Assembly: GCF_004151275.2 (NCBI RefSeq)
Contig: NZ_CP130821.1
Location: forward strand, 2,232,001-2,296,000
Direction: 5' to 3'
Source: Flavobacterium dauae
GTDB lineage: Bacteria > Bacteroidota > Bacteroidia > Flavobacteriales > Flavobacteriaceae
Length of the DNA: 64,000 nucleotides
Position numbers and translations under genes: made by a program. Below are positions 13,969 through 43,155 of the stretch, piece after piece. Below the pieces are notes generated by a model, which was given only the letters and a program-made list of their open reading frames with translations, was not told the DNA's origin and ran no database searches. Positions within the stretch are counted from its first letter, which is position 1; each line of letters begins with the position of its first letter.

Positions 13969-14994
13969 ATGTTAAAAAACGATTTATTTTTAAGAGCACT
14001 AAACGGAGAATCAGTAGAACGCCCACCAGTTTGGATGATGCGTCAGGCAGGAAGATATTTGCCGGAATTTAGAGCATTACGCGACAAATACGACTTTTTT
14101 ACCCGTTGCGAAACTCCGGAATTAGCAGCCGAAATTACAGTTCAACCAATAAGAATTGTAAAACCCGATGCAGCCATTTTATTCTCGGATATTTTGGTTA
14201 TTCCTCGTGCAATGGGAATTCATGTGGAATTAAAAGACAATTTAGGACCGCAGATTCCAAATCCAATCCGAACAATGGAGCAGGTAAATCAAGTGATTGT
14301 TCCAAATATAGATGAAACGTTGGGTTACGTGATGAACGCCATTAAACTGACCAAAGAAATGTTGAACAATGAGGTTCCGTTGATTGGTTTTGCAGGTTCT
14401 CCGTGGACAATTTTTTGTTATGTGGTGGAAGGAAAAGGATCTAAAAGTTTTGATACCGCAAAAGGTTTCTGTTTTTCAAATCCGGTTGCTGCACACACTT
14501 TGCTGCAAAAAATTACCGATACAACCATTTTGTATTTAAAGGAAAAGGTAAAAGCGGGTTGTAATGCTATTCAAATTTTTGATTCGTGGGGTGGAATGCT
14601 TTCCCCTACCGATTATAACGAGTTTTCTTGGCAATACATCAACCAGATTGTGGAAGCTTTGGCAGAAATGACAAAAGTAATTGTTTTTGGAAAAGGTTGC
14701 TGGTTTGCTTTAAACGAAATGGGGAAAAGTAAAGCATCGGCTTTAGGTGTAGATTGGACGTGCTCTGCAAGAAATGCCCGTTATTTATCAGGCGGAAACA
14801 TTACGCTGCAAGGAAATTTTGATCCTTCAAGATTACTTTCGCCAATTCCAACCATTAAAAAAATGGTTCACGAAATGATTGATGAATTCGGTAAAGACAA
14901 ATATATTGTAAATTTAGGTCACGGTATTTTACCAAATATTCCGGTAGATCACGCTAAAGCATTTATTGAGGCGGTTAAGGAGTATAACAGATAG
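13969..14994 (+). CDS. hemE: Uroporphyrinogen decarboxylase
   Basis: The 341-residue enzyme removes four carboxyl groups from uroporphyrinogen III to give coproporphyrinogen III. It starts with the family signature [16 protein letters not shown], whose Arg residues bind substrate. The catalytic Asp is in [12 protein letters not shown], and further blocks are [16 protein letters not shown] and [15 protein letters not shown] near the C-terminus. Length is normal. The stop codon at 14992-14994 touches the left repeat of the first four-helix-bundle cassette. Confidence 0.97.
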
Positions 14995-15406
14995 TTTTTA
15001 GTTGGTAGTTGTAAGTTTTTAGTTATGTATGATTATAAAAAATATATCGTTTGGCAAAAATCACATCAGTTGGTTTTAAATACGTATGCTTTTACAAATA
15101 ATTTTCCAAAGAACGAACAATATAATTTAACTTCTCAAATCAATCGGGCAGCCTTATCAATTCCTACAAATATTGCAGAAGGTTGTGGCAGAAACGGACA
15201 GAAAGAATTTATTAAGTTTTTAAATATCTCTTCTGGATCTGCTACAGAATTAGATTATCTGTTTTTGTTAGCTAAAGACTTAAATTTTATTCCAGAAGAA
15301 GATTATTTGAATTTAAATGAAGAATTAATAGAAATTAGAAAGATGTTATTTGCTTTAATTCAGAAAATAGCATCAACTTTAAACTAAAAACTCAAACCTA
15401 AAAACT
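14993..15406. repeat. Inverted-repeat-bounded cassette around four-helix-bundle gene 1
   Basis: Left side carries AGTTTTTAG (14993-15001) and AAGTTTTTAGTT (15013-15024) immediately before the ATG. Right side carries AACTAAAAACT (15382-15392, overlapping the stop codon) and CTAAAAACT (15398-15406). The order is mirrored, so the whole unit is one inverted-repeat cassette. Confidence 0.65.
15025..15387 (+). CDS. Four-helix-bundle protein (23S rRNA intervening-sequence/S23 family), copy 1
   Basis: The 120-residue all-helical protein has the IVP signature: VWQKSHQLVL near residue 10, FPKNEQYNLTSQINRAALSI, PTNIAEGCGR near 50-60 and FLNISSGSATELDYLFLLA. This family was first seen encoded in 23S rRNA insertions and is related to the pentameric Avd accessory protein of diversity-generating retroelements; its usual role is unknown, though Avd binds nucleic acid. 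Two paralogues lie at 17032 and 42757. It is inserted between hemE and the next gene inside a private inverted-repeat pair. No reverse transcriptase is nearby. Confidence 0.85.
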   Translation: MYDYKKYIVWQKSHQLVLNTYAFTNNFPKNEQYNLTSQINRAALSIPTNIAEGCGRNGQKEFIKFLNISSGSATELDYLFLLAKDLNFIPEEDYLNLNEELIEIRKMLFALIQKIASTLN

Positions 15407-15412
15407 TTAGAA

Positions 15413-15772
15413 ATGCTTACAAGTAAAAAAGACGAAACCGAACAACGTTTAAATTCCATACTGCAAAAGCTTTCAGGAATTACGTTTGTACCAGAAAATT
15501 GGAACGAGGCTGTTTTTTGGACAACTTTAGAAGAAACCGGATTGTCTAAAAGCGATGTTTTAGAAAAAGATGAAAACTTGTTTTTTAAGCAATTGATCGA
15601 TTTGCAGTTTCCTTGGGAACACATGGAAAAGTTGGCTGATATTTTAGTCGGTTTAGATCCAAAACAACCAGATCAATTGATAAAAGAGCGTGCCAAACAT
15701 CTGTATCAATTTATACATAACGAAAGCAAAATGTTCTCGTTTGAAATTATGAATAAGATTGGAAAGTTATAA
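15413..15772 (+). CDS. Conserved hypothetical protein in hem cluster
   Basis: The 119-residue soluble protein has no signal peptide or membrane segment. It is rich in Leu, Glu and Lys and probably helical (EQRLNSILQKLSG at the start, LIKERAKHLYQFIHNESKMFSFEIMNKIGKL at the end, given here only as landmarks). Family not recognised. Its stop codon overlaps the start of the following small membrane protein (TAATG), so the two are translationally coupled. The position between hemE and hemF raises the possibility of a haem-related role, without direct support. Confidence 0.65.
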   Translation: MLTSKKDETEQRLNSILQKLSGITFVPENWNEAVFWTTLEETGLSKSDVLEKDENLFFKQLIDLQFPWEHMEKLADILVGLDPKQPDQLIKERAKHLYQFIHNESKMFSFEIMNKIGKL

Positions 15773-16044
15773 TGATAAGAAATAAGTATAATATAGTTAC
15801 GATTTTAATTTATCTACTTTGGATAACATTTATAATAAGCACCATTATCACTTTTGATACTATAGAAAGTGCTTGTCAACAAGGTACCCTTTTTGTTGGT
15901 TTACCTATTGTAACCATATTTCTTACTTTTTTTTGCTTTATTACTATTGTTATAACCAATTTAATGTGTAAAAAGAATTTTTATGATGATTTACTTTTTG
16001 TAATAGTTCCTTTTTTAGGCTTGATTTTATACATATTCATCTAA
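15772..16044 (+). CDS. Small three-helix membrane protein
   Basis: The 90-residue product has three hydrophobic segments (about 10-30, 40-62 and 70-89) with a short polar tail, so it should be an inner-membrane protein. Its ATG overlaps the preceding stop codon and hemF starts 6 bp after its own stop, so it is cotranscribed with hemF. Family not recognised and the local AT content is higher than in the hem genes. Confidence 0.6.
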   Translation: MIRNKYNIVTILIYLLWITFIISTIITFDTIESACQQGTLFVGLPIVTIFLTFFCFITIVITNLMCKKNFYDDLLFVIVPFLGLILYIFI

Positions 16045-16050
16045 CTTAAA

Positions 16051-16953
16051 ATGAAAGATAAATTTTACAACTACATCCAGCAATTACAAAACACCATCAC
16101 TTCTAAATTAGAAGAAATTGATGGTACAGCAAAATTCCATGAAGACCTTTGGGAACGACCTGAAGGCGGAGGCGGAAGAACACGCGTAATTGAAAACGGA
16201 AGCGTTTTTGAAAAAGGAGGTGTCAATATTTCTGCGGTTCATGGTGCATTGCCAGAAAGTATGCAAAAGATGTTTAATGTAGGCGAAGCTGATTTTTTTG
16301 CGTGTGGATTAAGCTTAGTTATTCATCCAAAGAATCCAATGGTGCCGACGGTTCACGCAAATTGGCGTTATTTTGAAATGTACAATAAACAAGGTGCAAA
16401 AGTAGGTTCATGGTTTGGCGGCGGACAAGATTTAACACCTTATTATTTGTTTGAAGAAGATGCTAAACATTTTCATCAGGTTTGTAAAACCGCTTGCGAC
16501 AAACACAATCCCGAATTTTATCCAAAATACAAAAAAGTGTGTGATGATTATTTCTGGAATGCACACCGCAACGAAGCCCGTGGAATTGGCGGTTTATTTT
16601 TTGACCATTTAGTGGAAACTGAAGATATGACCATGGAAAACTGGTTCGATTTTGTAACCGAAGTCGGAAATAGCTTTTTAGAAAGTTATGTGCCAATTGT
16701 TGAAAAAAGAAAAGAATTACCTTACACGGATGCAAACAGAACGTGGCAGGAAATCCGTCGTGGACGTTATGTAGAATTTAATTTGGTACACGACAAAGGA
16801 ACTATTTTCGGATTAAAAACCAACGGTAGAATAGAAAGTATCTTAATGAGTTTACCACCGCATGTTCAATGGGTGTATGATCATCATCCCGAAATTGGAA
16901 GTGAAGAAGATAAGTTGGTTAAAGTGTTGCAGAAGCCTGTAAGTTGGGTGTAA
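16051..16953 (+). CDS. hemF: Coproporphyrinogen III oxidase, oxygen-dependent
   Basis: The 300-residue enzyme decarboxylates two propionates of coproporphyrinogen III to vinyl groups using O2, yielding protoporphyrinogen IX. Key blocks are HANWRYFEM, SWFGGGQDLTPYYLFEEDAKHFH, RGIGGLFFDHL and RRGRYVEFNLVHDKGTIFGL, all signatures of HemF and not of the radical-SAM HemN. It implies aerobic haem synthesis; no hemN is in the window. After its stop comes the left inverted repeat of the second four-helix-bundle cassette. Confidence 0.97.
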   Translation: MKDKFYNYIQQLQNTITSKLEEIDGTAKFHEDLWERPEGGGGRTRVIENGSVFEKGGVNISAVHGALPESMQKMFNVGEADFFACGLSLVIHPKNPMVPTVHANWRYFEMYNKQGAKVGSWFGGGQDLTPYYLFEEDAKHFHQVCKTACDKHNPEFYPKYKKVCDDYFWNAHRNEARGIGGLFFDHLVETEDMTMENWFDFVTEVGNSFLESYVPIVEKRKELPYTDANRTWQEIRRGRYVEFNLVHDKGTIFGLKTNGRIESILMSLPPHVQWVYDHHPEIGSEEDKLVKVLQKPVSWV

Positions 16954-16960
16954 GTAACAA

Positions 16961-17419
16961 GATTTCAGAAATCAGTAGTCAGATTACTGAAGCCTGATTT
17001 CCGACAACTGACAGCTATAAAAATTAATGTTATGAGAGATTATAAAAAATTACAAGTTTGGGAGAAATCACATCATTTAACATTAGAAGTATATCAAGAG
17101 TTAAAGAACTTTCCTAAAGATGAAATATTTGGATTAATCAGTCAGATGAAAAGGTCTTCAAATTCAATTCCAACTAATATTGCTGAAGGAGCAGGAAGGT
17201 TTTCAAATAAAGATTTTTCGAGGTTTTTATCAATTGCTTACGGTTCTTCTAATGAACTAGAATATCAAATAATTTTAAGTATTGATTTAGGTTTTATATC
17301 AGAAAAAACCGGGAATTCTTTTATCGAAAAAATTCAAGAAATAAGAAAAATGCTTTACGCATTAATAAATAAATTAAATAATTCAGAAAACTGATTGCTG
17401 AAAGCTGATTTCTGAAATC
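16961..17419. repeat. Inverted-repeat-bounded cassette around four-helix-bundle gene 2
   Basis: GATTTCAGAAATCAG (16961-16975) and its exact reverse complement CTGATTTCTGAAATC (17405-17419) enclose the gene. Between the arms and the gene are further degenerate CTGA/TCAG-rich units. The gene's stop codon lies inside the right-hand repeat. Confidence 0.7.
17032..17394 (+). CDS. Four-helix-bundle protein (IVP/S23 family), copy 2
   Basis: The 120-residue protein is a paralogue of the one at 15025: both have VW-x-K-SH near residue 10, FPKDEIFGLISQMKR, SIPTNIAEGAGR and FLSIAYGSSNELEYQ. Identity is partial, so this is not a recent duplication. It sits between hemF and hemB in its own inverted-repeat frame, whose sequence differs from the frames of the other two copies. 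A role in nucleic-acid binding is inferred from Avd-like structures of the family only. Confidence 0.85.
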   Translation: MRDYKKLQVWEKSHHLTLEVYQELKNFPKDEIFGLISQMKRSSNSIPTNIAEGAGRFSNKDFSRFLSIAYGSSNELEYQIILSIDLGFISEKTGNSFIEKIQEIRKMLYALINKLNNSEN

Positions 17420-17434
17420 TAAAAATAAAAAACT

Positions 17435-18436
17435 ATGTTCCCATTACACAGAGGCAGAAGATTAAGACAAAACGAATCGATTAGAAGTTTGGTTCGCGAA
17501 ACCAATTTAAGTCCGGCAGATTTTATGTTTCCAATGTTTGTCTGCGAAGGCGAGAATCAAGAAATCGAAATTCCTTCTATGCCCGGAATTTTTCGTCGAT
17601 CGATAGATTTAACGGTAGAAGAAGTAAAAGAACTTTTTGAATTGGGAATTCGTGCCGTAAATATTTACGTAAAAGTAAGCGATGATTTAAAAGACAATAC
17701 CGGAAAAGAAGCGTGGAATCCCAACGGATTAATGCAAAATGCCATTCGCGCTATTAAATCAGCTTGCCCGGAAATGATTGTAATGCCCGATGTTGCTTTA
17801 GATCCTTATTCAATGTACGGACACGATGGAATTATTAAAAACGGAGATGTTGATAACGATTCAACCGTTGAAGCTTTGGTAAAAATGGCGGTTTCACATG
17901 CCGAAGCTGGAGCCGATTTTGTTGCACCAAGCGATATGATGGACGGTCGGGTGTTGCGTTTACGTCAAGGATTAGACGCTGCTGGATTCATCAATGTAGG
18001 AATCATGAGTTATTCTGCCAAATACGCTTCGGCATTTTACGGACCTTTCCGCGATGCGTTGGATTCTGCTCCAAAAGAAACAGGTGAAATAGTTCCGAAA
18101 GATAAAAAGACCTATCAAATGGATTATGCCAACCGAATTGAAGCTATTAAAGAAGCTGTGTGGGATGCCGAAGAAGGTGCCGATATGGTAATGGTTAAAC
18201 CTGGAACCGCGTATTTAGATATTGTTCGTGAAGTGAAAGACAATGTTAATATTCCAGTTTGTGTATATCACGTTTCGGGCGAATATGCCATGATTAAAGC
18301 CGCTGCCGAAAAGGGTTGGTTAGATCACGATAAAATTATGATGGAACAGTTAATGTGTATTAAACGTGCCGGTGCCAGTTTAATTTCAACCTATTTTGCA
18401 AAAGAAGCAGCGATATTGTTGAAGAAACAGTATTAA
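17435..18436 (+). CDS. hemB: Delta-aminolevulinic acid dehydratase (porphobilinogen synthase)
   Basis: The 333-residue enzyme condenses two 5-aminolevulinates to porphobilinogen. The two active-site lysines are seen in MSYSAKYASAFYGPFR (near residue 195) and MVMVKPGTAYLD (near 250). The metal-binding segment reads DVALDPYSMYGHDG, with Ala/Asp/Asp where zinc enzymes have three Cys (DVCLCEYTSHGHCG type). This is the plant-like, magnesium-dependent version. hemB is the last gene of the cluster, followed by a terminator. It acts upstream of hemC although placed last. Confidence 0.97.
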   Translation: MFPLHRGRRLRQNESIRSLVRETNLSPADFMFPMFVCEGENQEIEIPSMPGIFRRSIDLTVEEVKELFELGIRAVNIYVKVSDDLKDNTGKEAWNPNGLMQNAIRAIKSACPEMIVMPDVALDPYSMYGHDGIIKNGDVDNDSTVEALVKMAVSHAEAGADFVAPSDMMDGRVLRLRQGLDAAGFINVGIMSYSAKYASAFYGPFRDALDSAPKETGEIVPKDKKTYQMDYANRIEAIKEAVWDAEEGADMVMVKPGTAYLDIVREVKDNVNIPVCVYHVSGEYAMIKAAAEKGWLDHDKIMMEQLMCIKRAGASLISTYFAKEAAILLKKQY

Positions 18437-18458
18437 AAATTAAACGTAAAATATCATA

Positions 18459-18487
18459 AACTATCTGAACAATTCAGGTAGTTTTTT
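18459..18487 (+). terminator. Terminator after hemB
   Basis: Stem AACTATCTGAA / TTCAGGTAGTT (one G-T wobble) with loop CAA, followed by seven T. It ends the hem cluster just before murI. Confidence 0.85.
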
Positions 18488-18501
18488 TATTTTTGTTGAC
18501 T

Positions 18502-19284
18502 ATGAAAAATGATACACGACCTATAGGTCTATTTGATTCGGGAATCGGTGGAACAACTATTTGGCACGCCATTCACAAACTATTGCCTAATGAAAATACG
18601 ATTTTTTTGGGAGATAGCATTAATGCACCTTACGGACAAAGATCAAAAGAAGAAATCATACAGTTATCAAAGAAAAATACAGAATGGCTTTTACAGCAAA
18701 ATGCCAAAGTTATCATTGTAGCTTGTAATACTGCTACCACAAATGCAGTTTCAGAATTGCGAAATACTTACAATATTCCAATCATAGGTATTGAACCGGC
18801 AATTAAACCCGCAGCCTTACATACTAAAACAGGTAAAGTTGGTGTTCTTGCTACGCAAGGTACTTTACAAAGTAAAAAATACACCGAAGCACAAACACTT
18901 TACCCTAATGTTAAATTTATCAACCAAATTGGTTATGGTATTGTACAACTAATTGAAAACGGTGATTTATATTCTGCTGAATTAGAAGACCTTTTAAAAT
19001 CGTTTATTACACCAATGATTGACGAAGATATTGACCATTTGGTTTTGGGATGTACACACTACCCTTACCTGTTACCTGTTTTAAATAAGTTTCTTCCTTC
19101 TGCTGTTAAAGTCATCGATTCCAGTGAAGCTGTTGCTAAACGTACTTTGAAGATTTTAGACGAAAACAACCTGCTTAAAACAGATAACCTGCCGGGATAC
19201 TCTAAATTTTACACCAACAAAAATGTTGAGATTTTACAGAGTTTTATCAACGGTTTGGGTACAGCCGAAAAGTTAGATTTCTAA
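18502..19284 (+). CDS. murI: Glutamate racemase
   Basis: The 260-residue cytoplasmic enzyme makes D-glutamate for peptidoglycan. Both catalytic cysteines are present, in VACNTATTNA (near residue 75) and LGCTHYPYL (near 185), with the N-terminal GLFDSGIGG Asp. I start at ATG 18502; a TTG at 18493 is in frame but only nine bases upstream and lies in the T-rich tail of the hemB terminator. It is convergent with the following repeat-protein gene, with only 18 bp between the stops and no obvious terminator hairpin. Confidence 0.96.
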   Translation: MKNDTRPIGLFDSGIGGTTIWHAIHKLLPNENTIFLGDSINAPYGQRSKEEIIQLSKKNTEWLLQQNAKVIIVACNTATTNAVSELRNTYNIPIIGIEPAIKPAALHTKTGKVGVLATQGTLQSKKYTEAQTLYPNVKFINQIGYGIVQLIENGDLYSAELEDLLKSFITPMIDEDIDHLVLGCTHYPYLLPVLNKFLPSAVKVIDSSEAVAKRTLKILDENNLLKTDNLPGYSKFYTNKNVEILQSFINGLGTAEKLDF

Positions 19285-19302
19285 TTCATCTAATACAAAC
19301 GC

Positions 19303-21177
19303 CTATTTCTTCGTCAGCTTAATTTCTAAAGTACCATCGCCATTTACTTTATCAAAGGTTATTATAGAGGTTTCTACATCAAAAACACTTAATTTCAACG
19401 CTTCTGTTTTTGTAACCTCCTTACCCTGAATTAACACCCTTTTTATTTTAGGATTATTGATACTGTTTTTAAAATCTTGTTCTAATTTATTTATAAAGTC
19501 GATATTTGACTGATTGTTATTTTGTTGATCTTCGATTTCCTTTAAAGCCTGATTCTTTTTTTCTTCAGCTTCTAATCGAGCTTTTTCGTCTGCATCTTTT
19601 TTAGCTTTGGCTTCCGCTTCTATACGTTCCTTTTCCTCTGCTAATTTTTTAGCTTTGGCTTCCGCTTCTAATCGAGCCTTTTCTTCAGCTTCTTTTTTGG
19701 CTTTGGCTTCCGCTTCTAATCGGGCTTTTTCTTCAGCTTCTTTTTTGGCTTTGGCTTCTGCTTCTAATCGAGCCTTTTCTTCGGCGTCTTTTTTGGCTTT
19801 GGCTTCCGCTTCTAATCGGGCTTTTTCTTCAGCTTCTTTTTTAGCTTTGGCTTCCGCTTCTATACGTTCCTTTTCCTCTGCTAATTTTTTAGCTTTAGCT
19901 TCTGCTTCTAATCGAGCCTTTTCTTCGGCGTCTTTTTTGGCTTTGGCTTCCGCTTCTAATCGGGCTTTGGCTTCCGCTTCTAATCGGGCTTTTTCTTCAG
20001 CTTCTTTTTTAGCTTTGGCTTCCGCTTCTAATCGGGCTTTTTCTTCGGCTTCTTTTTTGGCTTCTGCTTCTAATCGGGCTTTTTCTTCAGCTTCTTTTTT
20101 GGCTTTGGCTTCCGCTTCTATACGTTCCTTTTCCTCTGCTAATTTTTTAGCTTTGGCTTCTGCTTCTAATCGAGCCTTTTCTTCAGCTTCTTTTTTAGCT
20201 TTGGCTTCCGCTTCTAATCGGGCTTTTTCTTCAGCTTCTTTTTTGGCTTTGGCTTCTGCTTCTAATCGAGCCTTTTCTTCAGCGTCTTTCTTTGCTTTGG
20301 CTTCCGCTTCTAATCGGGCTTTTTCTTCAGCCTCTTTTTTGGCTTCGGCTTCTGCTTCTAATCGAGCTTTTTCTTCGGCTTCTTTTTTTGCTTTAGCTTC
20401 TGCTTCTAAACGAGCTTTTTCTTCGGCGTCTTTTTTTGCTTTGGCTTCCGCTTCTAATCGGGCTTTTTCTTCGGCTTCTTTTTTGGCTTTGGCTTCCGCT
20501 TCTAATCGAGCTTTTTCTTCAGCTTCTTTTTTGGCTTTGGCTTCTGCTTCTAATCGGGCTTTTTCTTCAGTCTCTTTTTTGGCTTCGGCTTCTGCTTCTA
20601 ATCGAGCGTTTTCTTCAGCTTCTTTTTTAGCTTTGGCTTCTGATTCTAATCGAGATTTTGCTTCGACGTCTTTTTTAGCTTCTTCAGCAACATTTATTTT
20701 TGTCTCTTCTACAGCTAATAATCGCTCTGTTTCTAAAGTTTCTTTTTTTAATTTTGCTTCGGCAGCCAAACGTGCTTGTTCTTCTGCAATCTTTTTAGCC
20801 TCTTCTTCAGCCTTTAGTCGTTCTTGTTCTTTTAATTTTGCCTGTTCGGCATAATATTCTACTTTTTCAATAATTTTTGCATCGATCTTTGCTCCTTCTA
20901 ACGAAAAACCTTTAAAACTACTTATTAATTTAATAATCACAGCTCCGTCTTTACCAATCGCTCCAAATACTTCAATAGCATCTTTAGGCTCTAATTCAAT
21001 AATACTTTCAATATGTTCAGGCTTGATTCTATCATAATCTGCAAAACGGATTTTATATCCGTTAACAATAATTAATGGATTTCCGTAACTAATTTCTTTA
21101 GAAAAAGGAATAGTTGAAGCGGCATTAACGGTTAATGTTGCAAAAGCACAACCAATTGCTATAAGTATTTTTTTCAT
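19303..21177 (-). CDS. Exported TolA-like repeat protein with plug-like N-terminal domain
   Basis: The 624-residue protein has a Sec signal peptide (cleaved near LTVNA). Residues ~30-105 (NPLIIVNGYKI, then KPEHIESIIELEPKDA, then GAIGKDGAVIIKL) look like the plug-type segment seen in TonB-dependent receptors and in some flavobacterial BlaR1-like proteins. Residues ~115-550 are about 27 near-identical 16-residue units of the form KAKKEAEEKARLEAEA, a long charged alpha-helical rod like TolA domain II. The C-terminal ~70 residues form a small domain ending in GDGTLEIKLTKK that again has the plug-like flavour. It probably spans the periplasm; function unknown. One unit is shortened and one duplicated, signs of repeat slippage. 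Confidence 0.8.
   Translation of the reverse strand: MKKILIAIGCAFATLTVNAASTIPFSKEISYGNPLIIVNGYKIRFADYDRIKPEHIESIIELEPKDAIEVFGAIGKDGAVIIKLISSFKGFSLEGAKIDAKIIEKVEYYAEQAKLKEQERLKAEEEAKKIAEEQARLAAEAKLKKETLETERLLAVEETKINVAEEAKKDVEAKSRLESEAKAKKEAEENARLEAEAEAKKETEEKARLEAEAKAKKEAEEKARLEAEAKAKKEAEEKARLEAEAKAKKDAEEKARLEAEAKAKKEAEEKARLEAEAEAKKEAEEKARLEAEAKAKKDAEEKARLEAEAKAKKEAEEKARLEAEAKAKKEAEEKARLEAEAKAKKLAEEKERIEAEAKAKKEAEEKARLEAEAKKEAEEKARLEAEAKAKKEAEEKARLEAEAKARLEAEAKAKKDAEEKARLEAEAKAKKLAEEKERIEAEAKAKKEAEEKARLEAEAKAKKDAEEKARLEAEAKAKKEAEEKARLEAEAKAKKEAEEKARLEAEAKAKKLAEEKERIEAEAKAKKDADEKARLEAEEKKNQALKEIEDQQNNNQSNIDFINKLEQDFKNSINNPKIKRVLIQGKEVTKTEALKLSVFDVETSIITFDKVNGDGTLEIKLTKK
19560..20665 (-). repeat. 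48-bp tandem repeat array inside the TolA-like gene
   Basis: Roughly 23 units of about 48 bp (16 codons), with shorter units near 19980 and 20060. The opposite strand stays open through the array (19607-20854), an artefact of the repeat composition. Confidence 0.9.
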
Positions 21178-21178
21178 A

Positions 21179-22165: not shown

Positions 22166-22248
22166 ATTTTTTTTTATAAAAATAGTCAATTTATTTTTAA
22201 CCTTATTTGAAATTATTTTTTAGCTTTAAAAAAAACTTGTTTTGTGCT

Positions 22249-22878: not shown

Positions 22879-22904
22879 AAATACATCAAAGATTAATAAC
22901 AGGG

Positions 22905-22941: not shown

Positions 22942-22996
22942 GATTTTTTGGTAATGTGATAAAAAGCAGAAAAAAGCGAGGTTAGGCAAAAGTAAG

Positions 22997-28613: not shown

Positions 28614-29113
28614 TCAAAATAACGGCTTATGCTTCTCATTATAGATTTCGCTAATTAACTCCCCGAACTCCTGAAAGTGGTACTCGATAATGTTGTCCAG
28701 ATAGGCATAAATCGTCAGTTTGTCGATGCCCATAATATTGGTAAGCCTGTTAAATGTTTCGTGGTGTTCCTGCCGTACATACACCGATTTACCCCTACTT
28801 GCAGTACTGTTCGGAATTTTAAAGAACTGTCCGCAGTAGTCCTGTTTGGTCAGCTTCTTTGGCTTGGAGGTACTTTTTTCGTACTGTTCGCTGACAGTTT
28901 AGTTTGTTCCGTTTCTGTTACTATTTCCTCGGGTTCTTCTCCTGCCATTACACGCATAATAGCTTCCTCATCCACATCGGGTTTGGCAAAGTCTTTCCTA
29001 TGTGTTGCTCCTTGTTGTTCTATCAAAGGTTGCTTCTTTTCATCAGTTAGGAAATTTTCAATAGAAAAAACCTCTTTTTCGGGTTGCTGATTTTTGTTTT
29101 CTTCGTGTATCAT
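28614..29113 (-). pseudogene. DUF3408-domain protein gene, frameshifted
   Basis: The first frame from ATG 29113 (MIHEENKNQQPEKEVFS) runs ~80 codons and stops at 28850 after KKVPPSQRS. In the next frame the coding sense continues without a break: KKLTKQDYCGQFFKIPN, then GKSVYVRQEHHETFNRL, then LTIYAYLDNIIEYHF and a stop at 28614. That second part is the typical DUF3408 domain of Bacteroidota conjugative transposons. One missing base in the A6 tract (T6 at 28874-28879 on the plus strand) would restore one frame. It is either a real knockout, programmed slippage, or an assembly error. No ParA/TraA gene precedes it as is usual. Confidence 0.75.
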
Positions 29114-29660
29114 ATCTCTAAATTTTAATATTATATCCAATTAGCTGTTTGGCTAGCTAAGCATTCATCTGTATATACTGTTGTATCTATGTAGCAACCT
29201 ATCTACCTATGCACCTGCATATCTTTAATTAGCTAGTTTATTAACTCAAAAATCTGTAATTAGTCTGCATTCAATCACGCAGATTTGCTGTCGGGATTTA
29301 TGCCGATTGGCTACATAGTTAAGGTTATAACCAATCAGCCAGATAACCAGTTACAAAGGAAATAAAAGCAATTACAACCCCCATAAAGGTGGCAGTATTT
29401 GGCGTTTATTGGCTTTGTTTGGCGTGATTGTAAGTTATTGTTATTCAAATAGTGTTATCGAACTTTGTAACGAAAGCGATTAGCTTTTTCGGCTAACTCC
29501 AATCCGTTTGCAAAACGGATTTTTCTGAACTCCTGTTCAGAGCAAGTTATCTCTTGAGGTCCTCGAAATAAATTTCCGCACCTCAAGAGCACTTGCCCTT
29601 GCAGGGGGCTGGAAACGGCTCCGAAGTCGCTCGTTTATATAAAATTAAAATTGGATTGAT
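29114..29660. promoter_or_regulatory. Non-coding leader of mob genes with candidate oriT
   Basis: About 550 bp without a gene. Close to mobA there are several dyads: AATCCGTTT-GCA-AAACGGATT (29501-29521), CTCTTGAGGT (29551-29560) facing ACCTCAAGAG (29580-29589), then a GC-rich stretch TTGCAGGGGGCTGGAAACGG. Hairpins plus a G-rich patch just before relaxase genes fit an origin of transfer. The upstream half (29140-29260) has repeated TAGCTAG-like units. Confidence 0.45.
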
Positions 29661-30095
29661 ATGGAAGAGAAAAACAGAAAACAGATTAAAAAAACAGGAA
29701 GAAAACCAAAGATTGACCCTGCGGTTCATCGATATTCCATCAACCTGAATGCTGAGGAAAATGCCAAGTTTCTTGCTCTCTTTGACCAATCAGAAATGAA
29801 AGTAATCGCTCATTTTATCAAAGCTTGCATCTTTCAGAAGACCGTAAAGACCGTCAAAATTGATATGAATGCGGTGGAATATCACGAAAAATTGACCCGA
29901 TTTTTTAGCCAGTTCCGATCAATAGGAACAAATTATAATCAGATTGTGAAGATATTGTACCGCAATTTTTCAGAGAAAAAAGCAGGAACATACCTCTTTA
30001 AATTGGAAAAGGAAACCATCGAATTGGTACAAGTCACTAAAGAAGTTATTCGTTTGACACAGGAATTTGAAGAGAAGTATCTGAAAAAAGAGTAG
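29661..30095 (+). CDS. mobA: Mobilization accessory protein, MobA/MobC type (relaxosome)
   Basis: The 144-residue basic protein starts with a Lys-rich tail, then a ribbon-helix-helix-like region (HRYSINLNAEENAKFLAL) and a helical domain (FFSQFRSIGTNYNQIVKILY), the pattern of plasmid mobilization relaxosome proteins of Bacteroidota. It binds oriT and loads the relaxase. The relaxase gene starts 4 bp after its stop, so they form an operon. Confidence 0.85.
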   Translation: MEEKNRKQIKKTGRKPKIDPAVHRYSINLNAEENAKFLALFDQSEMKVIAHFIKACIFQKTVKTVKIDMNAVEYHEKLTRFFSQFRSIGTNYNQIVKILYRNFSEKKAGTYLFKLEKETIELVQVTKEVIRLTQEFEEKYLKKE

Positions 30096-36370: not shown

Positions 36371-36438
36371 AAATAATTTAAAAACCAAATGGTTACAAGA
36401 ATAAAAAATATTAAATTGGGTCAAATATAAACAGCATT

Positions 36439-37017: not shown

Positions 37018-37933
37018 AGCATTAAAAGACCTTGATTTACAAAATGCTGATGTGTCGTTAGCAATTGTTAAGGAGTATAAAAAGAATAGAGAATCTAAGT
37101 ATATGGTTAATTACGTACAAATTAACCCCAATTTAGAAACTCGTTTACGGAACATTGTAACTCGTAAAATAAATTCAGCAAATACATTTGAAGACTACAC
37201 CTTTGATTGTCCTGAACCAGAAGAAGACCAAGTAAGAGCAATCAATTATGAAGAAACAGACTTTTACAGGATATTCGAGCAATTACAAGATTTAAATCCT
37301 GAAGAAGACATAATAGAAAACATTGAAGAACTCGTTAAAGCAAAAGCCTATTTAATTATACTACGCAATGAAGAGGGAATTCAGGTTGTAGGATTTAAAA
37401 CATTACCTGAAAACTGGAAAATGAAACGAGACCGAGGATTAATTCCTCTTCTTTACAGAGAAAACCGTTTTGAAGATTTAGAAGAAGAAAATGTTTTCAG
37501 TATATCTTCTTTTGTTGACTTGATTTATTTCAATGAAGCACTTTTTATTCTTTCTAAGAAGAATTTTGAGAGCGGACTTAATTTCCGTAATGGAATGTTA
37601 GCAAAAGCAGATGAATTATATCAAGAAGTTCGGGAAATCAATCTATTTGTCAATATAGAAATTCTTACTAATAGGGTTGGTAATAATCAACGATACCTAC
37701 GAAAAATAGCCACTATAAAAAATTTGGGGTATTATCAAAACAATGATTACTTACAACGTCTCAGATTAATTAGTCAACAAAGAAATTGGGGAATTGAATT
37801 TCAAGAGGGACAGATTGTAATTACAGAGGAAACACTAGATGCTGTACTTACGTTATTACAAAATAAAAGACTGCATTCAGAATTAACGGATGAAACTTTT
37901 GATGTTGATAGCGCTAAACGTTTAGAAATGTAG
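36992..37933 (+). CDS. KwaB-like DUF4868 protein (Kiwa defence candidate)
   Basis: The 313-residue soluble protein has the DUF4868 look: a central DLIYFNEALFILSKKNFESGLNF block and an N-terminal all-helical segment with ETRLRNIVTRK. In Kiwa, KwaB is the cytoplasmic effector recruited by membrane KwaA on phage attack, suppressing phage DNA replication or late transcription. An alternative start at 37001 (MRQKFRAL) would shorten it by three residues. A hairpin follows at 37951-37983. It is the last gene of element 1. Confidence 0.65.
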   Translation: MLTMRQKFRALKDLDLQNADVSLAIVKEYKKNRESKYMVNYVQINPNLETRLRNIVTRKINSANTFEDYTFDCPEPEEDQVRAINYEETDFYRIFEQLQDLNPEEDIIENIEELVKAKAYLIILRNEEGIQVVGFKTLPENWKMKRDRGLIPLLYRENRFEDLEEENVFSISSFVDLIYFNEALFILSKKNFESGLNFRNGMLAKADELYQEVREINLFVNIEILTNRVGNNQRYLRKIATIKNLGYYQNNDYLQRLRLISQQRNWGIEFQEGQIVITEETLDAVLTLLQNKRLHSELTDETFDVDSAKRLEM

Positions 37934-37950
37934 AGTTAGAAAAAATATAT

Positions 37951-37983
37951 ACGACACATAGATTATTAAATTCAATGTGTCGT
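37951..37983 (+). terminator. Hairpin after the Kiwa-like pair
   Basis: ACGACACAT / ATGTGTCGT form a perfect 9-bp stem with a 15-nt loop. There is no strong T-run, so termination is uncertain. Confidence 0.5.
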
Positions 37984-38053
37984 TATATGCTAAGTTTTGT
38001 ATATTTGCTATTGAGCGAACGGAAACACGTTGAAAAGCAAAGCAATAAGCACC

Positions 38054-38069
38054 GTTACCAAATCGTTAC
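38054..38069 (+). repeat. Candidate right attachment/arm motif of element 1
   Basis: GTTACCAAATCGTTAC, 14 of 16 identical to the copy at 22997. Upstream AAAAGCAAAGCAATAAGCA (38033-38051) resembles AAAAAGCAAAGATAAGCA at 49875-49892, left of the second integrase. Confidence 0.45.
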
Positions 38070-38146
38070 CTGACTTTTTTGATAATCTTTATAAAAGCTT
38101 ATTATTCAGCCAATACAGCTTTTTCCTGAAAACTTTAAAATATAAA

Positions 38147-38174
38147 AAAGGTACGCTGTGTTAAACGTACCTTT
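38147..38174. terminator. Hairpin between element 1 and sulP
   Basis: AAAGGTACG / CGTACCTTT, 9-bp stem with a 10-nt loop. The remaining 38070-38330 is AT-rich with no gene seen. Confidence 0.55.
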
Positions 38175-38331
38175 ATTAAAAACTAAATAACTAACAACAA
38201 TAATATAAGCAATAATTTCTTTACTTAATTACGAGAGCAAATATAATTATTTTATTTTTATTTAGAACAATTAAAAATAATAATTTGTCATAATTTTTTA
38301 TTTTCAAATTTACCTGATAAATCATAAGCTG

Positions 38332-38339
38332 TATTTTTG
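38332..38339 (+). promoter_or_regulatory. -7 box (TATTTTTG) of sulP
   Basis: Exact TANNTTTG match 15 bp before the TTG start of the transporter gene, so the leader would be very short. Confidence 0.5.
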
Positions 38340-38353
38340 CAAAAATTTTTAAT

Positions 38354-39865
38354 TTGAATCAGTTTAAACTATACCGCACAGAAATTTTAGCAGGCTTAAC
38401 TGTTGCCATGACAATGATTCCCGAATCGTTATCATTTGCAATTGTTGCAGGATTACCACCGCTAACCGGATTATACGGAGCCTTTATTATGGGAATTATC
38501 ACAGCCTTTTTAGGAGGAAGACCGGGAATGATTTCAGGTGGAGCCGGAGCAACCGTGATTGTAATGATTGCTTTAATTGCTACACATGGAATTGAATATT
38601 TTTTTGCTGCTGTTGTTTTGGCAGGACTTTTTCAGGTACTTGTCGGGATTTTTAAACTGGGTAAATTTGTACGTTTGGTTCCACAGCCTGTTATGTACGG
38701 TTTTTTAAACGGATTGGCAGTTGTGATATTTCTATCGCAAATTGAACAATTTAAACAAAAAACGAATGCTGGTTTTAGTTGGTTACAAGGCGAATCGTTG
38801 TATATAATGGGCGGTTTGGTACTGTTAACTTTAGTGTTGGTTCACTTTATTCCAAAAATATCAAAAGCGTTACCAACCACGTTAATTGCCATTGCAGTAA
38901 TTTTTGGTATTGTTCATTTTTTTAATATTGAAACTAAAACGGTTCAAGATATTGCATCAATCAGCGGAGGCTTTCCTCCTTTCCATATTCCTCAAATTCC
39001 ACTGAATTTAGAAACTTTACAGATTATCCTTCCGTATGCAGCACTTATGGCTGGCGTTGGTTTGCTTGAAAGTTTACTGACCTTAACACTTGTTGACGAA
39101 GTTACCGAAACCAGAGGAAATGCGAATAAAGAATCGGTTGCACAAGGAATTGCCAATATTACCAACGGTTTTTTCACGGGAATGGGCGGATGTGCTATGA
39201 TTGCTCAAACCTTTGTAAACTTAAATGCAGGAGCACGAAAACGCATTTCGGCTATTGTAAGCAGTTTGGCAATACTGTTCATTATATTGGTTGCTGCTCC
39301 GGTTATAGAGCAAATTCCAATGGCGGCTTTGGTAGGCGTTATGATGATGGTTGCTATTACCACTTTTAGCTGGGGATTTTTTAAGAAGATGACCAAAATG
39401 CCCAAAAGCGATATTTTAGTAACGTTGATTGTTGCCGGAATTACCATTATTTTTCGCAATTTGGCAGTTGCTGTTTTGGTTGGAATTATTATTTCGGCAT
39501 TGGTTTTTGCTTGGGAAAGTGCGAAACGCATCAGAGCCAGAAAATATGTTGATGAAAACGGAATTAAACATTACGAAATATACGGCCCATTGTTTTTTGG
39601 ATCGGTAACCAATTTTAACGAAAAGTTTGATTTAGCGAATGATCCCGAAACGATTATGATTTCGTTTAAAGAAAGTAGAATTGCCGATATGAGCGGAATT
39701 GAAGCGGTTGATTTATTGACAAAAAAATACAGCGAACGCAACAAAAAAGTTATTCTTACTTATTTAAGTGAGGATAGCCGAAAACTGTTAGAAAACGCAG
39801 CAGCAATTATTAAAGTAAATATAGCAGAAGATCCGCACTATAAAATACCGAGTGATTTGTTGTAG
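38354..39865 (+). CDS. SulP-family anion transporter with STAS domain
   Basis: The 503-residue protein has 10 or more membrane segments and the SulP signatures LTVAMTMIPESLSFAIVAGLPPLTGLYGAF-like region (positions 14-40; key MIPESLSFA) and NGLAVVIFLSQIEQF, then a C-terminal STAS domain (about 400-500) with MISFKESRIADMSGIEAVD. It imports sulfate, bicarbonate or similar anions. No ATG lies near the natural start; TTG 38354 is used. It follows the right end of element 1, so marC and sulP were probably neighbours before insertion. Confidence 0.9.
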   Translation: MNQFKLYRTEILAGLTVAMTMIPESLSFAIVAGLPPLTGLYGAFIMGIITAFLGGRPGMISGGAGATVIVMIALIATHGIEYFFAAVVLAGLFQVLVGIFKLGKFVRLVPQPVMYGFLNGLAVVIFLSQIEQFKQKTNAGFSWLQGESLYIMGGLVLLTLVLVHFIPKISKALPTTLIAIAVIFGIVHFFNIETKTVQDIASISGGFPPFHIPQIPLNLETLQIILPYAALMAGVGLLESLLTLTLVDEVTETRGNANKESVAQGIANITNGFFTGMGGCAMIAQTFVNLNAGARKRISAIVSSLAILFIILVAAPVIEQIPMAALVGVMMMVAITTFSWGFFKKMTKMPKSDILVTLIVAGITIIFRNLAVAVLVGIIISALVFAWESAKRIRARKYVDENGIKHYEIYGPLFFGSVTNFNEKFDLANDPETIMISFKESRIADMSGIEAVDLLTKKYSERNKKVILTYLSEDSRKLLENAAAIIKVNIAEDPHYKIPSDLL

Positions 39866-39883
39866 ATTAAGAAACAAAAAAAT

Positions 39884-40672
39884 ATGAAATTATCAAAGTT
39901 ACAGTTACAAATATTATTGATTACATTAAGTTGCTTTTTATTTAGTTGTAAAAAGGAAAAGTTGAGTATTGCTAAAACAGAAAAATCAACTGAATATCTT
40001 TTAGAATCACATTATGATTCACCTTTCTTTGAAGAAATAACTTTTCAAATTAAACAAGATAGTAGCTATATTTTCTCAAAAGAAAGCGAAATAGATCGTG
40101 ATAACAGTTCTCTCATTTCAAAGGGAAAAGTACTTATCCAAAATGACACGATTTTTTTCAAAAATCATCAATTTCAAATAAATCAAGCCGAAAAAGCAAT
40201 TTTAAAAAATAATTTAATCATTTTTTTAAATGCTGAAAATCCATATCGCATTCCTATATCTAAAACTAAATTAATTGTAAAGAATTACTATGATTTAAAT
40301 CAATTCAAAAATTACAGTACTTTTACATCCGAGGAGTTTTTCTTGAAACATTATTATAAAAGGAATTTTATTAATTATGAATTACAAAACAATGATATGT
40401 TTCAATTAGATAAAATTATAAAGAAAATGTTACACGAAAATAATGATAAATTGAGGCCATTTGAAGAATACGTATTTCAATGTTGTGCTGTTAAAAATGA
40501 TAAAGAGGAAATTGAAGTTTTTATTAACATTAATTGCGGTGATGAGACTACTGATGGCAGTTTTAAAATAAGTAGATTTTCAATGCGTGATGGAGGAAAT
40601 TGTAATGTAAATTTAAAAATAAACCTAACAAAAAATACCTATTCAGATTTATCGATAGCTGGGTCTGTATGA
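39884..40672 (+). CDS. Hypothetical lipoprotein
   Basis: The 262-residue product has a type II signal peptide with lipobox LFSC (Cys near 22, CFLFSCKKEK) and a predicted beta-rich body with aromatic-rich strands (FEEYVFQCCAVKND). It contains the paired CC and a GDET motif but no domain I can name. It starts 18 bp after sulP and could be cotranscribed. Its AT content is higher than that of the neighbouring core genes. The following intergenic region has a short CTGAAAGCTGAC repeat scrap near 40687. Confidence 0.7.
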   Translation: MKLSKLQLQILLITLSCFLFSCKKEKLSIAKTEKSTEYLLESHYDSPFFEEITFQIKQDSSYIFSKESEIDRDNSSLISKGKVLIQNDTIFFKNHQFQINQAEKAILKNNLIIFLNAENPYRIPISKTKLIVKNYYDLNQFKNYSTFTSEEFFLKHYYKRNFINYELQNNDMFQLDKIIKKMLHENNDKLRPFEEYVFQCCAVKNDKEEIEVFININCGDETTDGSFKISRFSMRDGGNCNVNLKINLTKNTYSDLSIAGSV

Positions 40673-40742
40673 AAATGTATTAATTTCTGAAAGCTGACTT
40701 TTAAATATCTCCGTACAATTTTTGGTATTTATCCAATTGTTT

Positions 40743-41624
40743 TTACGATCCTATATAATTTTCGTCTATCATCCATTTTTCACGTAAACGAAAAGCAGGA
40801 ATAGTTTGTCTTTTTGCTTTATTTACAACACTATTACCTTTAAGATTATTGTTTTTAGCCCAAACAGAAAGAGGAATAATTTTTTTTGCAGTAAGCATCG
40901 TAATTCTTTTATTCAAAGCCTCTTGTAGCAAAAGTGTCAAAAGAGATGTAAAACCGTCAAATTTCATCGTAACCTGATATTTAGAAAACAACGGATAATA
41001 ATCAGTATGTTTGCTTTTATTCTGAATGATAACGGGAGGCAGCCCTATTTTTATCAGTTGTTGGTTAATCAAAATTCTTCCTAAACGACCGTTACCGTCC
41101 CCAAAAGGGTGTATGGTTTCAAATTCTAAATGAAAATGAGCAATTTTGTCTAAGAAATAACGATTGTCATCGTTGTAATTATCTACAAGATCTTGCATTA
41201 TACCATTTACAAACAACGGATTTGCTCCCAAATGATTTCCTACTCTAACCCATTCTTTCCCACTTCGGAAACGTCCTGCAATATCATCTTCAATATTGGT
41301 AAGCAAAATTTTGTGTAAATCTAAAATAAGATTAGTAGATAGGTTTTGATTAGGGTTTTCGAGAAGCATTTCTGTTATTTTAGCTAAATTTTTTGCTTCA
41401 AAAACCTCTCGGATATTTACTTTTCTTTGTAATTCTCCACCAGTAAGAATTACCTCAGTATCTTCTAATGTAAGGGTAGAATTTTCAATAGCATTAGAGT
41501 TGTACACCATTTCAGGAATTTCAGCAATAGCAATTTCTTTCAGAAGTTGATCATTTCCTTTTGAAAGTTCAAAAAAACACCTTTGAAGTTCTGTTATTTT
41601 ATCTTTTGTCGTTTGATTAATCAC
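40743..41624 (-). CDS. Fic family protein (AMP transferase) with N-terminal inhibitory motif
   Basis: The 293-residue protein has a full Fic motif, HPFGDGNGRLGR, with the catalytic His and the phosphate-binding Asn/Arg. Near residue 42 the text SNAIEN matches the class II inhibitory pattern (S/T)xxxE(G/N), where the Glu blocks ATP orientation. The C-terminal ~60 residues with LSVWAKNN and VNKAKRQTIPAFRLREKWMID look like an HTH-like domain. Fic enzymes attach AMP or related groups to target hydroxyls; this one is a self-inhibited class II type. No antitoxin gene is adjacent, in line with an internal inhibitor. Confidence 0.9.
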   Translation of the reverse strand: MINQTTKDKITELQRCFFELSKGNDQLLKEIAIAEIPEMVYNSNAIENSTLTLEDTEVILTGGELQRKVNIREVFEAKNLAKITEMLLENPNQNLSTNLILDLHKILLTNIEDDIAGRFRSGKEWVRVGNHLGANPLFVNGIMQDLVDNYNDDNRYFLDKIAHFHLEFETIHPFGDGNGRLGRILINQQLIKIGLPPVIIQNKSKHTDYYPLFSKYQVTMKFDGFTSLLTLLLQEALNKRITMLTAKKIIPLSVWAKNNNLKGNSVVNKAKRQTIPAFRLREKWMIDENYIGS

Positions 41625-41755
41625 GTAAATGATTTTTGTAAAGATACAGATTTACCGTGAAAACACATAAAAAAACACATCTTTTCACGGTAAGTTCAAT
41701 TTATCCTTCTTCCCGAAATGTCTTAAATAATTAAGAAAACTGATAAATACTGTTA

Positions 41756-42694
41756 CTATTCCTGTGGCAAAAACACTTCTGCCAGCATACAGCGGGCACT
41801 TCCGCCGCCACAGGCTTCAATGGTGTAAAGCGGTGCGTGTAAAATGGCACAATGTTTTTCTATGGTTTTTATTTGAGTATCGGTTAATATTTCATACGCC
41901 TGTGTGCTCATAACCATATACAGTTGTCCGTTTGTTCCTTCCACCTGCAACATATTTCCTGCAAAATGGTTTACCTGATCTTCGGTAATGTATATAATTT
42001 CTTTGCCGTCTTCTTTCAGGCTGTTTACAACCAGTTTACGTTCTTGTTTATCGTCAATGCTATCGCCACAAATAACAGCAAACGTTTCGGCAACGCTCAT
42101 CATAACATTTGTGTGGTAAATAGGTAAACGTTTGCCATCAACAGTTTGGTATGCTTCAAAAATTACCGGGTGCATATCGTTGTCTTCGCAAAATTCTATA
42201 ATCAGTTCTTCATCTGCACGAGGCGATAAAGCGGCATAAACCTTTGCATTTTCACGATCGATAATCATACTGCCGGTTCCTTCTAAAAAAATATTATCTT
42301 CTTCGGCAGAGGTGTAATCGTTTATTTCGGTAATCTTAAAGCCTTCTTTTTCTACAATATCAAAAATATCTTCGCGACGTTCTAATCTGCGGTTTTCTGC
42401 AAACATTGGGTACAAAACTACTTCGGCATTGTCGTGAAACGAAATCCAGTTGTTAGGAAAAATACTGTCGGGCGTATCGGTATCCGTGGTATCGTCAACC
42501 ACAATTACATTTACACCAACCGAACGCAGACGTTCTACAAAACCGTCAAATTCTTCCTGAGCTTTTTGATTGACGTTTGCCGGAGTTAATCCTTCTAATT
42601 TTTTTTGATAATAATTATTTACTGCCGTTTGTTCGTTCATACGGAATTGCACCGGACGAATCATTAATACGGTATTTGCTGCTTGCTGACTCAT
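41756..42694 (-). CDS. ctlX: Citrulline utilization hydrolase CtlX (amidinotransferase superfamily)
   Basis: The 312-residue protein belongs to the guanidino-group-modifying superfamily. Recognition: RPVQFRMN at the start, DSIFPNNWISFH near residue 80-92 which is distinctive for CtlX, EGTGSMIID, YHTNVMMSV with catalytic His and GGGSARCMLAEVFLP with the nucleophile Cys302. It hydrolyses a ureido or guanidino group, proposed to act on citrulline. A related enzyme is encoded 460 bp upstream on the same strand, separated by a four-helix-bundle cassette, so this is a small arginine-degradation cluster. Confidence 0.9.
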   Translation of the reverse strand: MSQQAANTVLMIRPVQFRMNEQTAVNNYYQKKLEGLTPANVNQKAQEEFDGFVERLRSVGVNVIVVDDTTDTDTPDSIFPNNWISFHDNAEVVLYPMFAENRRLERREDIFDIVEKEGFKITEINDYTSAEEDNIFLEGTGSMIIDRENAKVYAALSPRADEELIIEFCEDNDMHPVIFEAYQTVDGKRLPIYHTNVMMSVAETFAVICGDSIDDKQERKLVVNSLKEDGKEIIYITEDQVNHFAGNMLQVEGTNGQLYMVMSTQAYEILTDTQIKTIEKHCAILHAPLYTIEACGGGSARCMLAEVFLPQE

Positions 42695-42722
42695 ATATTT
42701 TTTTGTTCTATGTTGTATGTAT

Positions 42723-43155
42723 TAAGTTGTATGTTCTTCTGTAATGTTATATGTTTCTATTTCCAGTTATTTTCAACGTATTTAATAAAAGAATAAATTT
42801 TAGCACTTAAAATTTCATAATTCTGAATCAAGTCGTCTCTAAATAAGTTACCGTATAAATGCTTAATTTTTTCAAGGTGATTAATTGTTTCCAAACAACT
42901 TGCCCATGAAAAGGTTAGGAATCTGACGAACTCTGCTTTATAAGCACTTCGGCCGTAGCCTTCTACAATATTTGTTACAATACTGTCAGATGATCTCCTT
43001 AATTGGCTTCCTAATTCGTATAATTCGTATTTAGGCAACTTCAAAGACATTGGATGGACTTCATAAAACAAAGACAAACTAATTTTGTAAATGTCTAAAT
43101 CTTTATAACTGCTCATAATTAAACCTAAAACATATAACTTATAGCGTACAACTTA
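42723..43155. repeat. Inverted-repeat-bounded cassette around four-helix-bundle gene 3
   Basis: Left: TAAGTTGTATG (42723-42733) and TTATATGTTT (42747-42756). Right: AAACATATAA (43128-43137) and CGTACAACTTA (43145-43155). The pairs are reverse complements in mirrored order (one mismatch). The right end overlaps the stop codon of the neighbouring DDAH-like gene. Confidence 0.7.
42757..43116 (-). CDS. Four-helix-bundle protein (IVP/S23 family), copy 3
   Basis: The 119-residue protein shares the family landmarks: LDIYKISLSLFYEVHP, LGSQLRRSSDSI, VTNIVEGYGR and FLTFSWASCLETINHLEKI. It is a paralogue of copies 1 and 2 at low identity and lies between ctlX and the DDAH-like gene within its own inverted-repeat frame. 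The frame sequence is unrelated to those of the other copies. Confidence 0.85.
   Translation of the reverse strand: MSSYKDLDIYKISLSLFYEVHPMSLKLPKYELYELGSQLRRSSDSIVTNIVEGYGRSAYKAEFVRFLTFSWASCLETINHLEKIKHLYGNLFRDDLIQNYEILSAKIYSFIKYVENNWK

Follow-up and report, generated by a model that had tools for sequence, protein, structure and literature searches.

In Flavobacterium dauae, a contig stretch of 64,000 nucleotides (NZ_CP130821.1, positions 2,232,001 to 2,296,000, forward strand; hereafter the window) carries three genes of the IVP/S23 four-helix-bundle family, each framed by short repeats. They are members of a class of cassettes of about 0.4–0.5 kb, in which one such gene stands between two arms of degenerate tandem words; each arm comprises about four to five words of 7 or 8 nt, and the arms are normally inverted to each other. 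Comparison of genomes supports the view that gene plus arms behaves as a cassette that would move as a unit. The reading preferred here, to which a probability of about 0.5 is given, is a mobile cassette family whose protein recognises its own words and whose copies are made by host enzymes and placed in operon junctions. An earlier note on the window had described the three genes in inverted-repeat frames; its observation is correct and belongs to something larger, and its idea of a cassette was partly right.

The design was followed in 120 distinct Flavobacterium genes, drawn from the best-scoring among the matches listed; genes with a profile score below 55 bits, duplicate coding sequences and loci with truncated flanks were excluded. 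Weak members are therefore under-represented, except from the own genome. The control set consisted of 59 genes taken mechanically as open reading frames (ORFs) of at least 80 aa. When the 5' flank was matched to the reverse complement of the 3' flank, the mean score was 29.9 for own pairs and 15.9 for shuffled pairs (n = 120). The own match lay above the 95th percentile of shuffled pairs in 81 of 120 cassettes, above the 99th in 47, and above the 95th percentile of the 59 controls in 85. The earlier note had stated that a gene lacking inverted repeats in most relatives would break its cassette model; the count of 81 is the opposite outcome. Grouping the cassettes by their neighbours gave 38 sites; when each site was represented by a single cassette, 28 of 38 exceeded the shuffled 95th percentile and 17 the 99th. 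For one gene, the second of L014, the start was placed too far downstream, so that its 5' arm score is wrong.

The flanks are periodic as well. At lag 7 periodicity reached 1.34 (3' side) and 1.25 (5' side) of expectation and at lag 8 1.20 and 1.11, as against 0.93–1.03 in controls (n = 120). The best lag was 7 in 73 and 8 in 34 of the 120 genes, compared with 9 and 7 of the 59 controls. A periodic tract was present on at least one side of 103/120 genes (10/59 controls) and on both sides of 47/120 (0/59), with about 4.4–4.6 words per measurable tract (75 tracts per side). In 81 cassettes the median distance from the stop codon to the beginning of the 3' arm is 10 nt, and that from the end of the 5' arm to the start codon is 29 nt. 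The flanks of the own-genome loci are likewise composed of short related words; L013, L010 and the second gene of L009 have direct arms in place of inverted ones (L numbers denote loci, G000 the own genome, and other G numbers further genomes). The gene lies on the strand of both neighbours in 114 of 120 cases, is antisense to both in 2 and stands between divergent or convergent neighbours in 4; adjacent control pairs were on the same strand in 110 cases and on opposite strands in 33.

The features of the window are as follows; the names of neighbouring genes (hemD, hemE, hemF, hemB and, further below, CtlX, acc, suf and fad) were read off the sequence, without a family search.

14993–15024, plus strand: 5' arm of cassette 1, AGTTNNN words, beginning within the stop codon of the upstream gene (sequence, high periodicity).
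15025–15387, plus strand: gene of cassette 1, four-helix bundle (IVP/S23), between a hemE-like and a hypothetical gene (PF05635, 137.4 bits).
15382–15409, plus strand: 3' arm of cassette 1 (AACTAAAAACTC...CTAAAAAC), overlapping the stop codon of gene 1 (sequence, periodicity, cross-pairing).
16960–17015, plus strand: 5' arm of cassette 2 (23-nt inverted match at 16960–16982, sequence).
17032–17394, plus strand: gene of cassette 2, four-helix bundle, between hemF-like and hemB-like genes (PF05635, 138.6 bits; structure model with a mean predicted local distance difference test score, pLDDT, of 96.8).
17388–17420, plus strand: 3' arm of cassette 2, overlapping the stop codon of gene 2 (arm match, periodicity).
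42709–42756, minus strand: 3' arm of cassette 3 (best match 42709–42735, periodicity).
42757–43116, minus strand: gene of cassette 3, diverged four-helix bundle, between two same-strand genes (PF05635, 73.9 bits; TIGR02436, 81 bits).
43129–43155, minus strand: 5' arm of cassette 3 (arm match).
13850–13983, plus strand: gene-less word array, probably a small form, at the hemD-like/hemE-like junction (top periodicity in the window).

Cassette 1 contains AGTTTTTAG at 14993 and 15014 (one further occurrence lies at 7827) and CTAAAAACT at 15384 and 15398. In cassette 2, GATTTCAGAAATCAG at 16961 has its complement at 17405; in cassette 3, the complements of TAAGTTGTA (42723) and TTATATGTTT (42747) lie at 43147 and 43128. 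All repeats named in the earlier note are present at their places, and its frames are real and usually inverted; they prove to be built of arrays of 7- or 8-nt words, and in some cassettes of the class they are direct. For a single-gene estimate of chance, the arms of each gene were paired with those of 117 other cassettes, which gives 234 foreign pairings. The own score was reached by 9, 1 and 1 of these for genes 1, 2 and 3 with the stop-codon overlap included, and by 26, 1 and 0 with the overlap excluded; the frame of cassette 1 is therefore weak if taken alone. Periodicity was scored for the window's intergenic stretches of 50 nt or more; five of the six cassette flanks fall within the eight most periodic, and the sixth ranks lower. 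The other three of the eight are the array 13850–13983 and the stretches at 29076 and 45446. This array has words in common with cassette 2, which lies about 3 kb downstream, and scores 28 against the arms of the own-genome cassette in L016 and 34 against L165 of another genome. The intergenic stretches 29076–29675 and 45446–45751 equal the cassette arms in periodicity and hold no PF05635 gene.

All three window genes exceed the curated cut-offs of PF05635 (23S_rRNA_IVP; 33.8 bits) and TIGR02436, so the family assignment made in the earlier note is confirmed; its count of three holds for the window, and the own genome (2.94 Mb) carries 12 PF05635 genes, while 14 control genomes carry none. The model of the gene 2 protein has four helices and matches the structure of XCC0516 (2gsc) with a template modelling (TM) score of 0.92 and the Avd protein of diversity-generating retroelements (DGRs; 4dwl) with a TM-score of 0.81 (E 0.044); 8ube was also matched. 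Structures 2gsc and 2rld comprise five chains apiece, and XCC0516 is given as a homopentamer in PMC4990558. A family search of the three window proteins returned only PF05635 and sub-threshold bAvd matches, with no transposase domain, Y1 included. The protein is under purifying selection, with a median ratio of nonsynonymous to synonymous substitution rates (dN/dS) of 0.08 in 62 close pairs (codon identity at least 78%, dS below 1.5).

Sequence comparison ties the word, as a tendency, to the lineage of the protein and not to the site. When cassettes of different sites were compared, arm scores reached 28 or more in 64% of 50 pairs with protein identity of at least 70%, in 24% of 54 pairs with 60–70% identity and in 1–4% of pairs below 60%; none of 500 permutations reached the observed correlation between word and protein. 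At the fadB-fadA-like junction two protein lineages occur, each with its own word, and L197 and L193, which belong to the TTAGTGA lineage and lie at other places, retain the TTAGTGA word. L043, at the hemF-hemB junction, falls in the protein lineage of the hemE junction (support 98). The short repeats, which the earlier note took to be locally chosen, are thus linked to the protein across sites, and local choice was rejected. The arms also co-vary at one site: own arms scored above cross-paired arms in 258 of 331 pairs, with 12 ties and 61 losses, and per gene in 70 of 105. On the protein tree (116 of the 120 proteins, length 100–140 aa; 36 of 113 inner branches unresolved) the sites cluster, with 26 label changes as against 79 after shuffling, which means that many cassettes are inherited in place; crossings are present too. 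Two loci of G040, L021 and L157, encode 97% identical proteins with the same word and flank a fadB-like gene at a distance of about 2.8 kb from each other.

Filled and empty forms of the same junction were found in relatives. The accB-accC-like junction holds a cassette of about 0.5 kb in G000 and only 2–4 bases from stop to start in G022, G018 and G020; G059 has a gene-less palindrome there and G027 another insert. Such clean empty sites, lacking the gene and both arms, are what the earlier note had suggested looking for. A copy within one genome was also found: two G000 genes at different sites, one of them this accB-accC-like junction that is empty in relatives, are 80% identical, and the similarity spans the ORF and extends into the arms (arm score 31). 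Gene plus arms as a unit and a protein devoid of a transposase domain are the parts of the earlier cassette model that find support, and the local choice of repeats is the part that does not. The sufA-sufB-like junction carries a cassette in G000, a cassette with a different word in G039 and gene-less palindromes in G022, G027 and G043; no word array was recognised by eye at this junction in G058, G020 and G018. The sufB-sufC-like junction has a cassette in G000 and G043 and, in G022 (L319), two small ORFs instead, which resemble a YefM/YoeB-type toxin-antitoxin pair.

Gene-less forms are common at other junctions. At the hemE junction, among 29 genomes, the gene is present in 2, an array or palindrome in 9 and neither in 18; the nine include the marginal L267 and L250 (G046), a palindrome of a different type (CCTGCAAGG...CCTTGTAGG) lacking the 7/8-nt period. 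Upstream of CtlX the corresponding numbers among 30 genomes are 7, 6 and 17. The earlier note regarded empty sites that keep repeats as contrary to a cassette, an objection that holds in part: gene-less arrays or palindromes occupy these 9/29 and 6/30 junctions, in most cases with words unlike those of the gene-bearing cassettes there, and for that reason they could be regarded as separate small forms. Read in this way, their presence at the operon junctions that cassettes use adds to the clean empty sites and the copy within the own genome as support for movement of the cassette as a unit. Among 80 hemB loci of named genomes, several have gene-less arrays immediately before hemB. Five genomes encode a protein that shares at least 72% identity with that of the GTTGATG lineage, and all five have a GTTGATG array, as do 20 of the 56 others (Fisher 0.009); in G052 only a broken piece of 71 residues is left of the gene. 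The match numbers refer to overlapping units and not to whole arrays; in G015 and G049 the matches are partly the gene's own arms, and those of G030 were not itemised. Three of the five GTTGATG-richest genomes (G058, G014 and G006) have no close cognate gene, and the comparison gives mixed evidence as to whether a cognate gene could drive the spread of gene-less arrays. Long GTTGATG arrays lie at G058:C1:687736–688128 and 3572096–3572229.

The gene is widespread. It was present in 60 of 61 genomes of the genus sample (at least one gene each, own genome included) and in 157 of 198 genomes of the phylum sample. Of 29 further loci from the phylum sample, four of them of the window's own genus, 19 had arms above the shuffled 95th percentile, as did 21 of 28 genes from named cyanobacterial and Bacteroidota genomes (from 30 loci; Vasconcelosia, L335, dropped out). 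In eight cyanobacterial genes lag 7 stood at 1.55 and 1.78. Gene 1 matched 29 plasmid records, mostly cyanobacterial. On a Nostoc edaphicum plasmid the gene lies between GTAGGGA-type and TCCCTAC-type arrays (score 63), and on a Calothrix brevissima plasmid between GGGTGTA and TACACCC arrays (score 53); a Riemerella plasmid (NZ_CP081938.1, L241) has a cassette after an iron-sulfur assembly gene (score 40), and the signal is weak in two of the remaining three plasmid loci and absent from the third. The junction type of L241 is that of G000 and G039, here on a plasmid of another family. Gene 2 had no match in 50,697 phage records, and no member was found in 6 of 15 genomes searched through loci, including two gammaproteobacteria and a Cyanobium. 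In published studies, one family member is expressed in F. psychrophilum biofilm (PMC5787105), another lies in F. columnare between guanylate kinase and nicotinate adenylyltransferase genes (PMC5524665), a junction resembling that of site 3 here, and the same domain is carried by ribosomal RNA (rRNA) insertions of the candidate phyla radiation (PMC11270868) and named in a figure legend (PMC10910872).

The mobile cassette reading could be realised as follows. The protein, a pentamer in the solved relative, would recognise the words of its own lineage in nucleic acid; four to five words per arm and the pentameric XCC0516 would fit one word per subunit, and recognition would mark the cassette ends. 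Host enzymes would then copy the cassette into open operon junctions, and the same enzymes could copy gene-less palindromes in trans. On this view, rRNA intervening sequences would have arisen from copies inserted into rRNA genes.

Alternatively, the cassettes could be RNA intervening sequences, the arms of which pair in the operon transcript so that the stem encloses the ORF and is excised by RNase III as in rRNA, with RNA pairing conserved. Predicted RNA folds of all three window cassettes do pair the arms (z −2.49, −0.72 and −2.36), which is the outcome of the fold check proposed in the earlier note; in 114 of 120 cases the gene shares its strand with both neighbours, and cutting of rRNA intervening sequences by RNase III is described in PMC4990558. 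An RNA stem should, however, leave more G-U than A-C mismatches between the arms. The counts were 103 and 126 in 100 of the 120 Flavobacterium cassettes (p 0.15), with no excess, and 42 and 72 in 48 of 63 other cassettes (p 0.006), in the wrong direction, a test that is only indicative because the words are not independent sites. As there is no sign of selection for RNA pairing, the stem was demoted as a conserved feature, though the folds pair the arms; direct arms also speak against it, and this explanation is rather improbable. In view of the negative mismatch result, the putative mechanism preferred here is that the Avd-like protein recognises the words. Rfam gave no match at gathering thresholds in 13000–44000 of the window. 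Another rival is chance, AT-rich intergenic DNA yielding such repeats. Cassette 1 by itself, with 26 of 234 foreign pairings reaching its score once the stop overlap is excluded, would be compatible with it; shuffled arms, control genes and the lag spectrum led to its rejection for the class, the same design recurs in named genomes including cyanobacteria, and chance can be regarded as highly improbable.

The arms could also serve self-regulation in a gene that is not mobile, as operator or translation-control sites inherited with the protein, relocation being rare ordinary recombination. The clustering of sites on the tree (26 and 79 label changes), purifying selection and the position of the arms next to start and stop codons agree with this; clean empty sites next to filled ones, one junction used by several lineages, gene-less palindromes at many junctions and the copy within the own genome do not, and it is judged unlikely. 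Somewhat more unlikely still is that the arrays of words are repeats in their own right, born of slippage or mobile, with the gene a hitch-hiker between two of them. Arrays are indeed abundant in G058, G014 and G006, where a close cognate gene is missing, and such arrays have been described with no reference to this gene in the main texts of MacGregor 2015 (PMC4679880) and PMC4692102; opposed to it are the link of word and protein lineage across sites and the mutual inversion of the arms in most cassettes.

Several observations weigh against the mobile cassette family itself. Binding and the copying mechanism are inferred. Most cassettes are inherited in place according to the protein tree, and the gene stands in only 3 of the 80 named hemB loci within the DNA examined. 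Direct arm matches exceed the shuffled 99th percentile in 28 of 120 cassettes. Inspection by eye of the accB-accC-like junction revealed no target-site duplication; the empty-site flanks there are 10–15% diverged. The Spearman coefficient between word and protein over all pairs is only 0.116, with a permutation that ignores relatedness. L043 shares the AGTTNNN word of the hemE lineage by eye, at arm scores of 22–23 that are below the threshold of 28. GTTGATG matches are most numerous in G058 (48), with 33 in G014 and 12 in G006, none of which has a close gene of that lineage.

The closest kin of the cassettes are the rRNA intervening sequences, and the earlier analogy with the IVPs of 23S rRNA is a fitting one. 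The Coxiella intervening sequence, in the description given in PMC4990558, has a 28-bp terminal stem, is excised by RNase III and carries tandem heptamers of varying number directly ahead of the S23 start codon; the origin of such sequences is called unclear there. The protein family and the complementary termini around an S23/IVP ORF are shared with the intervening sequences of 23S and 16S rRNA (cassette 1 being weak alone). Unlike these, the cassettes lie between protein-coding ORFs of operons and not inside an rRNA gene, occur in many copies per genome, have lineage-specific words in both arms and are accompanied by gene-less small forms; because of the location they are a variant of that kind, not members of it.

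Intergenic heptamer repeats also resemble the arms, as tandem 7-nt units between genes, often by start or stop codons; those of cyanobacteria are known as STRR (short tandemly repeated repetitive sequences). TAACTGA repeats have hosts that include cyanobacteria and Bacteroidetes (MacGregor 2015, PMC4679880), GGGAATC repeats occur in Xanthomonas and GGGGA(C/T)T in Nostoc (PMC4692102), and close inverted heptamer pairs number 70 and 75 in two Xanthomonas genomes according to PMC4692102. The arms differ from these arrays in the additional period of 8 (best lag in 34 of 120) and in the variety of their words, every one of which is linked to a protein lineage. The terms 'S23' and 'four helix' have no occurrence in the main texts of PMC4679880 and PMC4692102, and no link of this protein family to heptamer repeats outside rRNA was found by full-text search of open-licence PMC papers, a scope that does not prove absence.

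The likeness to the DGR protein Avd lies in the fold (4dwl, TM-score and E as above) and, for genes 1 and 2, in a weak match to the family; these two reach 37.0 and 24.8 bits with the NCBIfam Avd model, whose cut-off is 80, and gene 3 has no match. Repetitive extragenic palindromic (REP) sequences with their REP-associated tyrosine transposase (RAYT) and miniature inverted-repeat transposable elements (MITEs) are small palindromes between operon genes, with or without a protein gene. The cassettes share this occurrence in operon junctions with and without a gene; they differ in a protein that has no transposase domain and in arms that are word arrays, not one fixed palindrome.

Two further ORFs of the window were noticed. 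That at 19303–21177 (minus strand) has 624 residues, mostly near-identical repeats rich in A, E and K, and that at 40743–41624 (minus strand) has 293 residues and resembles a Fic-domain protein.

A wider proposal, put forward tentatively and rather doubtful as a whole, is that Bacteroidota and cyanobacteria harbour a categorically new kind of mobile element. Its Avd-like protein, pentameric and non-catalytic, would read lineage-specific 7–8-nt words, one per subunit, and would borrow a polymerase or reverse transcriptase of the host to write both word arrays and the element's own cassette into the junctions of operons; protein and word would co-evolve, and the heptamer repeats of these genomes and the rRNA intervening sequences would be its products.

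The cassettes join three things that were described separately, namely an orphan protein family, the intervening sequences of rRNA genes, and intergenic heptamer repeats, whose role and spread had been described as unexplained. Whether each protein recognises its own word becomes testable. If each does, nature would supply many pairs of protein and word from which to learn the way in which sequence is read by a helical bundle, and such elements would have a candidate path into rRNA genes.

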